DNA of 64,000 nt, from positions 1 through 64,000 of the forward strand of contig NZ_QKTO01000007.1 in the NCBI RefSeq assembly GCF_003234855.1. Direction: 5' to 3'. Within the stretch, counting starts at the first letter, position 1. The number at the start of each line of letters is the position of its first letter. This document shows positions 45,422-49,545 of this stretch, in pieces. Both the position numbers and the translations under genes were made by a program. Source of the stretch: Curtobacterium sp. MCBD17_032. GTDB taxonomy: Bacteria > Actinomycetota > Actinomycetes > Actinomycetales > Microbacteriaceae. The notes under the pieces were generated by a model. It was given only the letters and a program-made list of their open reading frames with translations, had not been told where the DNA came from and ran no database searches.

Positions 45422-46354
45422 CTACTTCAGGTGGCGCTCGGCGGCCTCGACGACGTTCTTCATGAGCATCGCGCGGGTCATCGGGCCGACGCCGCCCGGC
45501 GTCGGCGACAGGAAGCCGGCGACCGACGCCACCGCGGGATCGACATCGCCGCGGAGCTTCGCCTTGCCGGTCGACTCGTCGACGATCCGGCTGATGCCCA
45601 CGTCGATGACGGCCGCACCGGGCTTGACCCAGTCCGGCTGCACGAGCCCGGCCACCCCGGCCGCGGCGACGATGATGTCGGCACGACGGCACTCGGCAGC
45701 GACGTCCTCGGTGAGGGAGTGCGTCAGCGTCGCGGTTGCCTCGAGCCGGGTCAGCAGCAGGCCGAGCGGACGACCGACCGTCAGGCCCTGGCCGATGATC
45801 GTGACGTGCTTGCCCCGGATCGGGACGCCGTACGCCTCGAGCATCGCGACGATCCCCCGCGGGGTGCACGGCAGCGGGGCGTCGATCGTACCGGCACCAC
45901 CGGGGACGGCGAGCACGAGCTCACCGAGGTTCGTCGGGTGCAGGCCGTCGGCGTCCTTCGCCGGGTTCATCAGCTCGAGCATCGGGATCGGGTCGATGCC
46001 CTGCGGCAGCGGGAGCTGCACGATGAACGCGGTGACCCGGGGGTCGTCGTTCATCTGCAGGATGGCCCCGCGGATGTCCGCTGCACTGGCCGTCTCCGGC
46101 AGGTCGATGCGGACCGAGTCGAGCCCGATCTGCGCCGAGTCCTTGTGCTTGCCGGCGACGTACGACACGGAGCCCGGGTTCTGGCCGACCATGATCGTGC
46201 CGAGACCGGGCCGGAAGCCGTGGTCGTGCAGCCGGTCGATGCGGACCTTCAGGTCGTCGAGCGTGCGGGCGGCGAGGGCGGTGCCGTCGATGCGGACGGC
46301 ACTGCCCTCCCCCGCCCAGAGCGCTCGCGGCAGGTCGGCCACGGCGGCGCTCAC
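45422..46354 (-). CDS. folD: methylene-THF dehydrogenase / methenyl-THF cyclohydrolase
   Basis: A bifunctional NADP-dependent enzyme of one-carbon metabolism, 310 residues. The catalytic Lys is in [26 protein letters not shown] carries the substrate-binding segment, and the nucleotide-binding loop is [17 protein letters not shown]. The GTG overlaps the glyA stop (GTGA), so it is co-translated with glyA and under the same riboswitch. Confidence 0.95.
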
Positions 46355-47658
46355 GCGTAGAGCGGGAACGCGTCGGTCAGGGCCTTGACCCGGGCCGAGA
46401 GCGCCTCGATGTCCGGCTCCGGCATGAGGGTCAGCGCGATGATGTCGGCCACCTCGGTGAACTCGGCGTCGCCGAAGCCACGGGTCGCGAGCGCCGAGGT
46501 GCCGATGCGGACACCCGAGGTGACCATCGGCGGGCGCGGGTCGAACGGCACCGAGTTGCGGTTCACGGTGATGCCGACCTCGTGCAGCAGGTCCTCGGCC
46601 TGCTTGCCGTCCACCTCGGACTCGCGCAGGTCGACGAGCACCAGGTGCACGTCGGTGCCACCGGTGAGGACGTCGATGCCCGCGGCCTTGGCGTCGTCCT
46701 GTGTCAGACGCTCAGCGAGTGCCTTCGCGCCGCGGAGCGTGCGCTCCTGGCGGTCCTTGAACTCCGGCGTCGCGGCGAGCAGGAACGCGGTGGCCTTGGC
46801 GGCGATCACGTGCATGAGCGGACCGCCCTGCTGGCCCGGGAACACCGCGGAGTTCAGCTTCTTGAAGAGCGACTCCTCGTTGGACAGGATGATGCCCGAG
46901 CGGGGGCCGGCGAGCGTCTTGTGCACCGTCGACGACACGACGTGGGCGTGCGGCAGCGGCGACGGGTGCAGGCCCGCGGCGACGAGACCGGCGAAGTGCG
47001 CCATGTCCACCCAGAGCGTCGCGCCGACCTCGTCCGCGATCTCGCGGAACTTCGCGAAGTCGAGCTGACGCGGGTACGCCGACCAGCCGGCGATGAGGAC
47101 CTTCGGCTGGTGCTCGATCGCCTTCGCGCGGATGTCGTCGTAGTCGACCTCGAACGTCTCCGGGTCGACGCCGTAGGACACCGCGTTGTAGATGCGGCCG
47201 GAGAAGTTGAGCTTCATGCCGTGGGTCAGGTGACCGCCGTGGGCGAGCTCGAGGCCGAGGATCGTGTCCCCGGCGGAGGCGATGGCGTGCAGGACCGCGG
47301 CGTTCGCGCTGGCGCCGGAGTGCGGCTGGACGTTCGCGTACGCGGCACCGAAGAGGGCCTTCGCGCGGTCGATGGCGAGCTGCTCGGCGACGTCGACGAA
47401 CTCGCAGCCGCCGTAGTAGCGCTTGCCGGGGTAGCCCTCGGCGTACTTGTTCGTCAGGACGGAGCCCTGCGACTCGAGGACGGCGCGCGGGACGAAGTTC
47501 TCGGACGCGATCATCTCGAGGGTGTCGCGCTGGCGACCGAGCTCGTTCTGCAGGACCGCGGCGATCTCGGGGTCGACCTCGGCGAGGGAGGCGTTGAAGC
47601 TGGACGGCGTGGAACTCGCGGACTGCGTGGACGCAGCGGGCAGATCGGTGATGGACAC
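46351..47658 (-). CDS. glyA: serine hydroxymethyltransferase
   Basis: A PLP enzyme converting serine and THF to glycine and methylene-THF. The 435 residues include [38 protein letters not shown], the PLP-binding Lys in [16 protein letters not shown] and [17 protein letters not shown]. Its first ~25 residues form a Ser/Thr-rich extension. GTG start at 47658 behind GAGGAG. The 5' leader of about 130 nt holds a ZTP riboswitch. Confidence 0.96.
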
Positions 47659-47710
47659 GGGACTCCTCGTTGTCTGATCGCCGCGCGGACGCGACGAGGT
47701 GGACGGGTGG

Positions 47711-47788
47711 GCGCTGCCCAGGCGTACGGCTGCGCTCCGTGTCAGGTGTCGCTCCCCGATGGTGACCCATCCAACGCCAGTCGCGACC
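47711..47788 (-). promoter_or_regulatory. ZTP (pfl) riboswitch of glyA-folD
   Basis: Read on the minus strand, the leader contains GGTCGCGACTGGCG at its 5' end, then ATCGGGGAGCGACACC and the 3' pseudoknot segment CGCCTGGGCAGC. These are the conserved pieces of the ZTP/ZMP-sensing pfl motif, which controls folate and purine genes such as glyA and folD in this phylum. The first pairing element begins at the predicted transcription start. Confidence 0.88.
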
Positions 47789-47793
47789 GTTCG

Positions 47794-47822
47794 ATCGTAC
47801 CGAGGCCGCAGGTTCGTGTCAC
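47794..47822 (-). promoter_or_regulatory. promoter of riboswitch-glyA-folD
   Basis: On the minus strand: -35 GTGACA (47817-47822), a 17-nt spacer and -10 TACGAT (47794-47799). Start is predicted at about 47787, the first base region of the riboswitch. Confidence 0.7.
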
Positions 47823-47831
47823 CCTTGTCCC

Positions 47832-48119
47832 ATGACCATGCTGAGTCCGGACGTCGACGAGCGCACCTCGGTGCGGGCCGACGTCCCGTGGACCACGGTG
47901 GTGTGGGACGACCCGGTGAACCTGATGTCGTACGTCACCTACGTCTTCGAGTCGTACTTCGGGTTCCCGCGGGCGAAGGCCGAGCGCCTCATGCACCAGG
48001 TCGACTCGGACGGTCGGGCGGTCGTCGCGACCGGGCACCGCGAGGAGATGGAGCGCCACGTGGAGGCCATGCACGGGTACGGCCTGCAGGCGACCGTCGA
48101 CCGGGCTCCCGCCGCGTGA
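47832..48119 (+). CDS. clpS: ATP-dependent Clp protease adaptor ClpS
   Basis: Delivers N-degron substrates to ClpC/ClpA. The 95 residues have the ClpS core: [40 protein letters not shown] and the C-terminal [20 protein letters not shown]. Two ATGs (47832, 47838) are possible. The end overlaps the next gene (GTGA). Confidence 0.95.
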
Positions 48120-48592
48120 TCCCCTTCGTCCGTCGAGCCGACGGGGTGCACCTCGGTCTCGCCGCCGGCGAGCGCGCCGTGTTGACGTCCCTCGTGGAGC
48201 AGTTGCGCCAGGTCCTCGACCACGACCTGACGACGGACCCGGTGGCGACGCGGATGTTCCCGGACGCCTACCCGGGGGACGACGAGGCCAGCGCCGAGTT
48301 CCGCCGGTACACGCAGGACGACCTGCGCACCGCCAAGTCCGCGAACGCGACCGTCGTGCACGAATGGTTGACGGGCACGCGGGACGGAGCGCTCACCCGC
48401 GCCGACGAGCAGGCCTGGCTCCGGTCCCTCACCGACCTGCGGCTCACCATCGCGGACCGCCTGGGCATCGTGGACCGGGACACCGCCGACAACGGCCTCG
48501 ACGGGGACGACGGCAGCATCGGCCTGCGGGACGTCTACGACTGGCTCGGGTACGTGCAGGAGCACCTGGTCGTCACGATCTCGTCCCGCTGA
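48116..48592 (+). CDS. DUF2017 family protein
   Basis: A 158-residue helical protein (ERAVLTSLVEQLRQVLDHDL, LRLTIADRLGIVDRD, YDWLGYVQEHLV), matching the DUF2017 family that accompanies clpS throughout Actinobacteria. GTG start in a 4-nt overlap with clpS. The function is unknown; the fixed neighbourhood suggests a link to ClpS. Confidence 0.88.
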   Translation: MIPFVRRADGVHLGLAAGERAVLTSLVEQLRQVLDHDLTTDPVATRMFPDAYPGDDEASAEFRRYTQDDLRTAKSANATVVHEWLTGTRDGALTRADEQAWLRSLTDLRLTIADRLGIVDRDTADNGLDGDDGSIGLRDVYDWLGYVQEHLVVTISSR

Positions 48593-48675: not shown

Positions 48676-49545
48676 GTGACGACCCCGACGCCCGAGACCC
48701 CCACGCACTGGACCCTGACGCTGGTCTGCGACGACCAGCCCGGCATCGTACACGCCGTCTCCGGAGCGGTCGTCGCGGCCGAGGGGAACATCACCGAGTC
48801 CCAGCAGTTCTCCAGCGCCGACACGGACACCTTCTTCATGCGCCTGCAGGTGATGGCACCGGTGGACCGCCAGACGTTCCAGGAGGCCCTGGCCCCCGTC
48901 GTCGAGCGGTACCGCATGCGCGTCCAGCTCGACGTCGTCGGCCGGCCGATGCGCACGCTCGTCCTGGTGTCGAAGGCCGGACACTGTCTCAACGACCTGC
49001 TGTACCGGCAGCGCGGCGGGCAGCTGCCGATCGACGTGCCGCTCGTGCTGTCGAACCACACCGATCTCGCCGAGTTGGCGTCGTTCTACTCGGTGCCGTT
49101 CGAACACCGGCCCGTCACCGACGCCGGGTCGAAGGCCGCGATGGAGCGCCGGGTCCTCGAGGCGGTCGAGGAGCACGACATCGAACTCGTCGTCCTCGCC
49201 CGGTACATGCAGATCCTCTCCCCCGAGCTGTGTGCGGCCCTCGCCGGCCGTGCGGTGAACATCCACCACTCGTTCCTGCCCGGCTTCAAGGGCGCGAACC
49301 CGTACCGGCAGGCGCACGCCCGCGGGGTGAAGCTCATCGGCGCGACGGCCCACTTCGTCACGAGCGACCTCGACGAGGGCCCGATCATCGAGCAGAACGT
49401 CGTGCGGGTCGACCACACCAAGGAGCCCGCCGAGCTCGTGTCCATCGGGCAGGACGAGGAGTCCCGCACCCTGACCCAGGCCGTCCGCTGGATCGCCGAG
49501 GACCGCGTGCTCCTCGACGGTGCCCGCACGATCATCTTCAAGTAG
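48676..49545 (+). CDS. purU: formyltetrahydrofolate deformylase
   Basis: Hydrolyses 10-formyl-THF to THF and formate, balancing the one-carbon pool. The 289 residues have an N-terminal ACT domain (residues 8-80: LTLVCDDQPGIVHAVSG) and a formyltransferase-like domain with VNIHHSFLPGFKGANPYRQA (catalytic Asn-His) and FVTSDLDEGPII (catalytic Asp). Its location 1 kb from glyA-folD fits a shared pathway. Confidence 0.95.
   Translation: MTTPTPETPTHWTLTLVCDDQPGIVHAVSGAVVAAEGNITESQQFSSADTDTFFMRLQVMAPVDRQTFQEALAPVVERYRMRVQLDVVGRPMRTLVLVSKAGHCLNDLLYRQRGGQLPIDVPLVLSNHTDLAELASFYSVPFEHRPVTDAGSKAAMERRVLEAVEEHDIELVVLARYMQILSPELCAALAGRAVNIHHSFLPGFKGANPYRQAHARGVKLIGATAHFVTSDLDEGPIIEQNVVRVDHTKEPAELVSIGQDEESRTLTQAVRWIAEDRVLLDGARTIIFK

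Follow-up and report, generated by a model that had tools for sequence, protein, structure and literature searches.

A ZMP/ZTP riboswitch ahead of glyA-folD in Curtobacterium, with its linker as a candidate switching strand

Introduction

The ZMP/ZTP riboswitches (RF01750, the pfl motif) are a well-known class of leader RNAs that senses a folate-stress signal. In the first listing of the motif, glyA and folD are among the five commonest genes, and predicted terminators overlap many of the pfl RNAs (PMC2864571). ZTP riboswitches typically turn genes on, with OFF examples also predicted (PMC9481103), and in the pfl riboswitch of Clostridium beijerinckii, the switch is made by a terminator that invades the P3 helix (PMC10907184). 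The covariation between aptamer and expression platform that is examined here has likewise been sought for RF01750 with a whole-riboswitch covariation model, which was seeded from sequences that carry predicted terminators and have 5-35 nt past the aptamer; applying covariation analysis to expression platforms is said there to have been hard (PMC13273304). In the same paper, a tree of termination results, which by its context belongs to the fluoride riboswitch set, has nearly no transcriptional variants in Actinomycetota (PMC13273304).

The leader considered here precedes glyA in a 64,000-nucleotide stretch of the genome of Curtobacterium sp. MCBD17_032, the whole of which is called the window. 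It shares P1, P2, P3, the conserved loops and the glyA/folD genes with the pfl motif as first listed, but it carries no terminator-like site of the kind predicted for many of those RNAs (PMC2864571). With the C. beijerinckii riboswitch, it has the aptamer class and the expected ON direction in common, whereas its proposed switching strand is the linker of the aptamer and its proposed target is the start of translation instead of a terminator (PMC10907184). A terminator-less leader of this type would probably have been left out of the seed of the whole-riboswitch model (PMC13273304).

The riboswitch and its operon

Judged from its sequence, the element in the glyA leader is a ZMP/ZTP riboswitch, which would presumably bind its ligand. 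The covariance-model search that the initial annotation had suggested as a check on this assignment places RF01750 at 47794..47709 on the minus strand with 54.7 bits (cmscan, E 4e-06 for the whole window), well over the Rfam gathering score of 39 bits. The alignment spans model positions 1-86 of 86, permissive settings return the same match, and an assembly-wide search gives this one match in the entire 3.3 Mb. All three sequence pieces that had been quoted as pfl/ZTP signatures are found on the minus strand, CGCGACTGGCG at 47785..47775, CGGGGAGCGAC at 47758..47748 and CGCCTGGGCA at 47724..47715; the same strand carries the promoter, glyA and folD, a point on which the initial annotation was silent. 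The conserved loop pieces and the P1, P2, P3 arrangement are present in the Rfam alignment (Table 1), and the folate genes glyA and folD stand downstream, which is the genomic context of RF01750. The outer CGC/GCG pairs of P3, past an A-A mismatch, were read by eye, and the outermost four model pairs of P1, which lie upstream of the probable transcript start, are unformed. One of the 30 sampled genus loci (L045, genome G257) has a 24-base tandem duplication about 70-95 bases past the aptamer start, by which the conserved P3 loop and 3' strand occur twice (CGCCTGGGC).

Table 1. Positions of the features discussed, in window coordinates
Feature	Position	Strand	Basis
Promoter: GTGACA (47822..47817), 17-nt spacer, TACGAT (47799..47794)	47794..47822	-	sole sigma-70-like site in 47500-47900
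ZMP/ZTP aptamer, RF01750 match	47709..47794	-	cmscan, 54.7 bits; first bases precede the probable transcript start
P1 5' strand GUCGC	47783..47787	-	invariant together with partner strand, 30/30 genus loci
P1 3' strand GCGAC	47748..47752	-	Rfam alignment; invariant in 30/30 genus loci
P2 hairpin, GAUGG pairs with CCAUC	47758..47771	-	Rfam alignment
Linker block GACACGG, proposed switching strand	47737..47743	-	30/30 genus loci, with varied neighbours; linker/initiation-region covariation in other genera
P3 and conserved loop GUACGCCUG	47712..47734	-	Rfam alignment
glyA Shine-Dalgarno GAGGAG	47663..47668	-	sequence; AGGAG kept in genus alignment
CCGUGUC over glyA GUG start, proposed linker partner	47654..47660	-	exact complement of 47743..47737; 30/30 genus loci
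glyA, serine hydroxymethyltransferase	46351..47658	-	NF000586, 600.3 bits, cut-off 335
folD, methylenetetrahydrofolate dehydrogenase/cyclohydrolase	45422..46354	-	open frame; best NCBIfam NF010789, 392.9 bits, slightly below cut-off 401
protein with partial match to the AosR regulator family	48119..48589	+	47.1 bits, far below cut-off 260
purU	48676..49545	+	TIGR00655, 298.3 bits, cut-off 285.95

The promoter is present just as it had been described, and shuffled versions of the region 47500-47900 contain a mean of 0.0 sigma-70-like sites (50 shuffles). It is kept in all 30 sampled genus loci, with a spacer of 17 in 29 of them and of 18 in one, and none of 173 loci outside the genus has it. 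The usual distance between a -10 box and +1, counted from TACGAT, puts the start of the glyA-folD transcript probably at or near 47787, where P1 begins. This agrees with the initial annotation, which places the start exactly at the first helix. The start codon of clpS (47832, plus strand) is ten bases away from the glyA -35 site (47817..47832), so that a promoter of clpS would have to share DNA with that of glyA or with the riboswitch.

The two genes of the operon overlap by GTGA in their open frames, in agreement with the junction that had been claimed. The gene purU is indeed nearby by position, but it lies on the opposite strand, past clpS and one more gene, and hence outside the riboswitch transcript. 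An opposite-strand purU match occurs in 8 of 60 loci, a count that is confined to 1.5 kb flanks and misses more distant copies. Downstream of the aptamer, glyA is found in 59 of the 60 loci and is followed by folD in 45, the 1.5 kb flank often holding only the first part of folD.

The motif scores over its cut-off in 40 of 40 genomes of the genus, 263 of 299 of the family, 126 of 198 of the order and 10 of 119 of the phylum; 12 of the 119 phylum genomes have a match, one of them the genome of the window and another from its order, too few for a wider test. The identification of a ZTP riboswitch before glyA-folD is correct but ordinary: most family genomes have the motif, and glyA and folD are already named in its first listing (PMC2864571). 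A purH-like frame stands behind the ZTP aptamer in 20 out-of-family loci (e.g. L153, L173, L209) and likewise in four in-family ones (L017, L082, L103, L139), and in several out-of-family genomes the purH-linked aptamer is a second copy, about 10-30 kb from the first. The aptamer of L116 is followed by a small frame that is related to neither glyA nor purH, and in L052 glyA is out of frame near its start, one base short relative to its relatives, for which a sequencing error is a possible cause.

Complementarity between the linker and the glyA start

A transcriptional ZTP riboswitch, whose terminator hairpin would invade P3 in the ligand-free state, has its precedent in C. beijerinckii (PMC10907184), and two leaders from another family of the same order (L184 and L202) have a hairpin followed by a T run after P3, as read by eye. 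The region 47500-47900, however, contains 0 terminator-like sites and so no intrinsic terminator overlapping P3, the window leader has no T run, and the 3' strand of P3 does not covary with the initiation region across the loci compared below (z -1.1 to 0.9). Terminator attenuation, which was set aside for want of a terminator-like site in 47500-47900, is highly improbable here. L184 and L202 themselves are divergent ZTP-like leaders before a purE-like frame, lost to the anchor pattern and therefore outside the covariation test; their terminator-like hairpins mean that the order is not uniform.

In the window, the block GACACGG in the linker between the P1-P2 half and P3 is matched by CCGUGUC over the start of glyA, and the duplex of the two has an energy of -10.5 kcal/mol. 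When 30 genus leaders are aligned, much of the spacer from P3 to the ribosome site varies and the flanks of the linker block vary too; GACACGG and CCGUGUC are each invariant in 30 of 30 loci, which leaves no within-genus covariation. Because both blocks are invariant, the genus by itself cannot separate pairing from independent conservation, and other genera were therefore compared. The coding bases past the glyA start are also well kept, so the start side is not specially conserved.

Thermodynamic folding counts against the helix. In the window leader, ViennaRNA assigns the linker/start helix a probability of 0.00-0.02, and for a leader ending at 47650 the structure in which the helix is forced lies 2.6 kcal/mol above the best one; as the best structure of a single sequence, neither the aptamer nor the linker helix is recovered. 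In the genus, the helix is clear of P1, so that the aptamer helices and the start helix are not mutually exclusive on paper.

Ribosome access could also be governed without the linker, by a local hairpin between the spacer segment CCUCGU and ACGAGG in the Shine-Dalgarno region. All six bases match in the window leader, as they do in 14 of 30 genus loci, and the linker helix could coexist with such a hairpin; yet 16 of 30 are without it, ViennaRNA gives it a probability of 0.00 in the window leader, and across loci the spacer fits its own Shine-Dalgarno region no better than that of another locus (family z -2.1 to -1.2; other families z -0.3 to 0.1). With its occurrence limited to 14 of 30 loci and no covariation, against z 4.4-5.1 for the linker in the same script, the local hairpin was rejected and is quite unlikely. 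A second hairpin, UGGGC-AGC-GCCCA, follows the aptamer and might compete with P3 and govern ribosome access by another route. It has at least 4 pairs in 16 of 30 genus loci, the window included, and was rejected for being confined to these 16; that it is missing in 14 of 30 makes this reading very unlikely. The 3' extension of P3 does give a repeated signal with positions -28 to -8 (family z 2.6-2.9; other families z 1.6-1.8), but the linker scores higher when run through the same script (4.4-5.1).

Covariation across genera

For each locus, the longest Watson-Crick match between the linker with its adjacent P1 strand and the region around the downstream start was determined, and the linker/start pairs of each genome were compared with pairs shuffled between genomes, one locus being drawn per genus. 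The loci (L001-L210) come mostly from score-ordered lists, best first, so that the sample may be biased. L146 duplicates L062, and L155, an in-family locus from the order search, was left out, so 208 remain; of these, L165, L184 and L202 (no anchors), L199 (no start) and L116 (by hand) were dropped, which leaves 203. L017 was assigned to purH and L187 to glyA by visual inspection, and L052 had its start set by hand. A first version with a narrower pattern, in which 22 of 140 loci dropped out, as did 20 of 68 from outside the family, gave similar results.

Among in-family glyA leaders (52 genera), the mean helix with positions -30 to -8 is 4.81 pairs for own pairs vs 4.15 for shuffled ones (z 5.0), in a comparison whose shuffles do not model the shared ancestry of genera; two other draws give z 6.0 and 5.5. 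In the same window, 8 helices of at least 7 pairs are found vs 1.6 expected. The signal recurs in other families, whose loci were collected once the in-family pattern was known, with z 4.3, 4.3 and 3.8 (33 genera). Control windows in the coding sequence, for which one draw was made, range from z -1.7 to 1.8, the family's +12 to +34 window ranking highest (p 0.045). When the start codon itself is the target (-8 to +8), no significant mean emerges for the family (z 0.9-1.4), although 6-7 helices of at least 7 pairs occur vs about 3 expected (p 0.02-0.05); outside the family, this window gives z 3.4-3.5. The purH leaders (n=20) reach only z 1.6-1.7. For the window -32 to +12, z 3.0-5.4 remains after removal of ACACGG linkers, and z 3.1-4.5 when only dissimilar linkers are kept.

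A map of ten segments by ten downstream windows in 79 genera, which rests on the first, narrower-pattern version, sets the linker and its 5' half apart, with z 6.0-6.6 against -28 to -7 (6.3-6.6 for the linker as a whole). The 3' half of the linker against the same positions has z 3.0-3.6, the 3' end of P3 against -28 to -14 has z 3.5, and P2 and the first loop reach up to 2.8 near the start. By the same version, a helix of 6 pairs is missing from all sampled loci in 39 of the 79 genera. In the 40 genera having a helix of at least 6 pairs, the longest one extends into the 3' strand of P1 in 15, where it would exclude P1, and it stops short of that strand in the other 25, among them the genus of the window.

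The type of start codon also goes with the linker sequence. In family glyA loci outside the genus, CCGTG lies upstream of an ATG start in 9 of 11 loci with a CACGG linker vs 1 of 33 without (p 7e-7, from counts of loci and not of independent events, the 11 loci belonging to six genera and five of them to one genus). With GTG starts, CCGTG lies over the start in 13 of 18 loci with a CACGG linker vs 11 of 39 otherwise (p 0.002, again counted by loci). This association is the main support for the version seen in the window, in which the glyA start codon is the target.

The aptamer might also be real and the complementarity in the genus a product of chance or of other constraints, with the switch acting through Rho-dependent termination, RNA decay or the like. 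The invariance of both blocks in the genus and the failure of folding to predict the helix agree with that, as does the weaker family-wide support for the start-codon version than for a site upstream of the ribosome site. That the covariation recurs in both taxon sets, and that linker sequence goes with the type of start codon, speaks against it, and it appears rather unlikely. Across genera there is a covarying helix at the ribosome site or start, and in the genus of the window there is conservation only. As covariation analysis has reportedly been hard to apply to expression platforms (PMC13273304), a signal in two taxon sets is useful.

Proposed mechanism and significance

The leader is somewhat more probably than otherwise a translational ON switch, in which the ligand-free linker hides the glyA start or ribosome-binding site and ZMP or ZTP frees the start; on the route from ligand binding to glyA, the initial annotation was silent. 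Without ligand, the linker between the P1-P2 half and P3 would pair with the initiation region of glyA, in the window's genus by GACACGG with CCGUGUC, inside which the GUG start codon lies, and this pairing would bar ribosomes from glyA, with folD following suit through the GTGA overlap. Binding of ZMP or ZTP would dock the two halves, hold the linker in the aptamer and so free the start, upon which both enzymes, GlyA and FolD, would be made. That the ligand frees the site is proposed because ZTP riboswitches typically act as ON switches and a helix at the start should hinder initiation. Ligand binding, the helix as OFF state, release by ligand and the translational coupling of folD are the inferred parts of this scheme; in genera with a helix clear of P1, release would have to come from the docking of the halves.

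For the order as a whole, the chances seem about even that the variable linker serves as the switching strand, antisense to the ribosome-binding site or the start codon and kept so by compensatory change, with the target site set by a GTG or an ATG start and with neither a terminator nor invasion of P3. This probable output stage, with the linker as switching strand, appears to be new: a pairing of the linker with the initiation region was not found described in the literature searched, which did not extend to the 2015 founding papers, so an earlier description is possible. If the linker is the switching strand, this would show by what means ZTP riboswitches without a terminator can function across a large group of bacteria, and it would give the linker of the aptamer a role.
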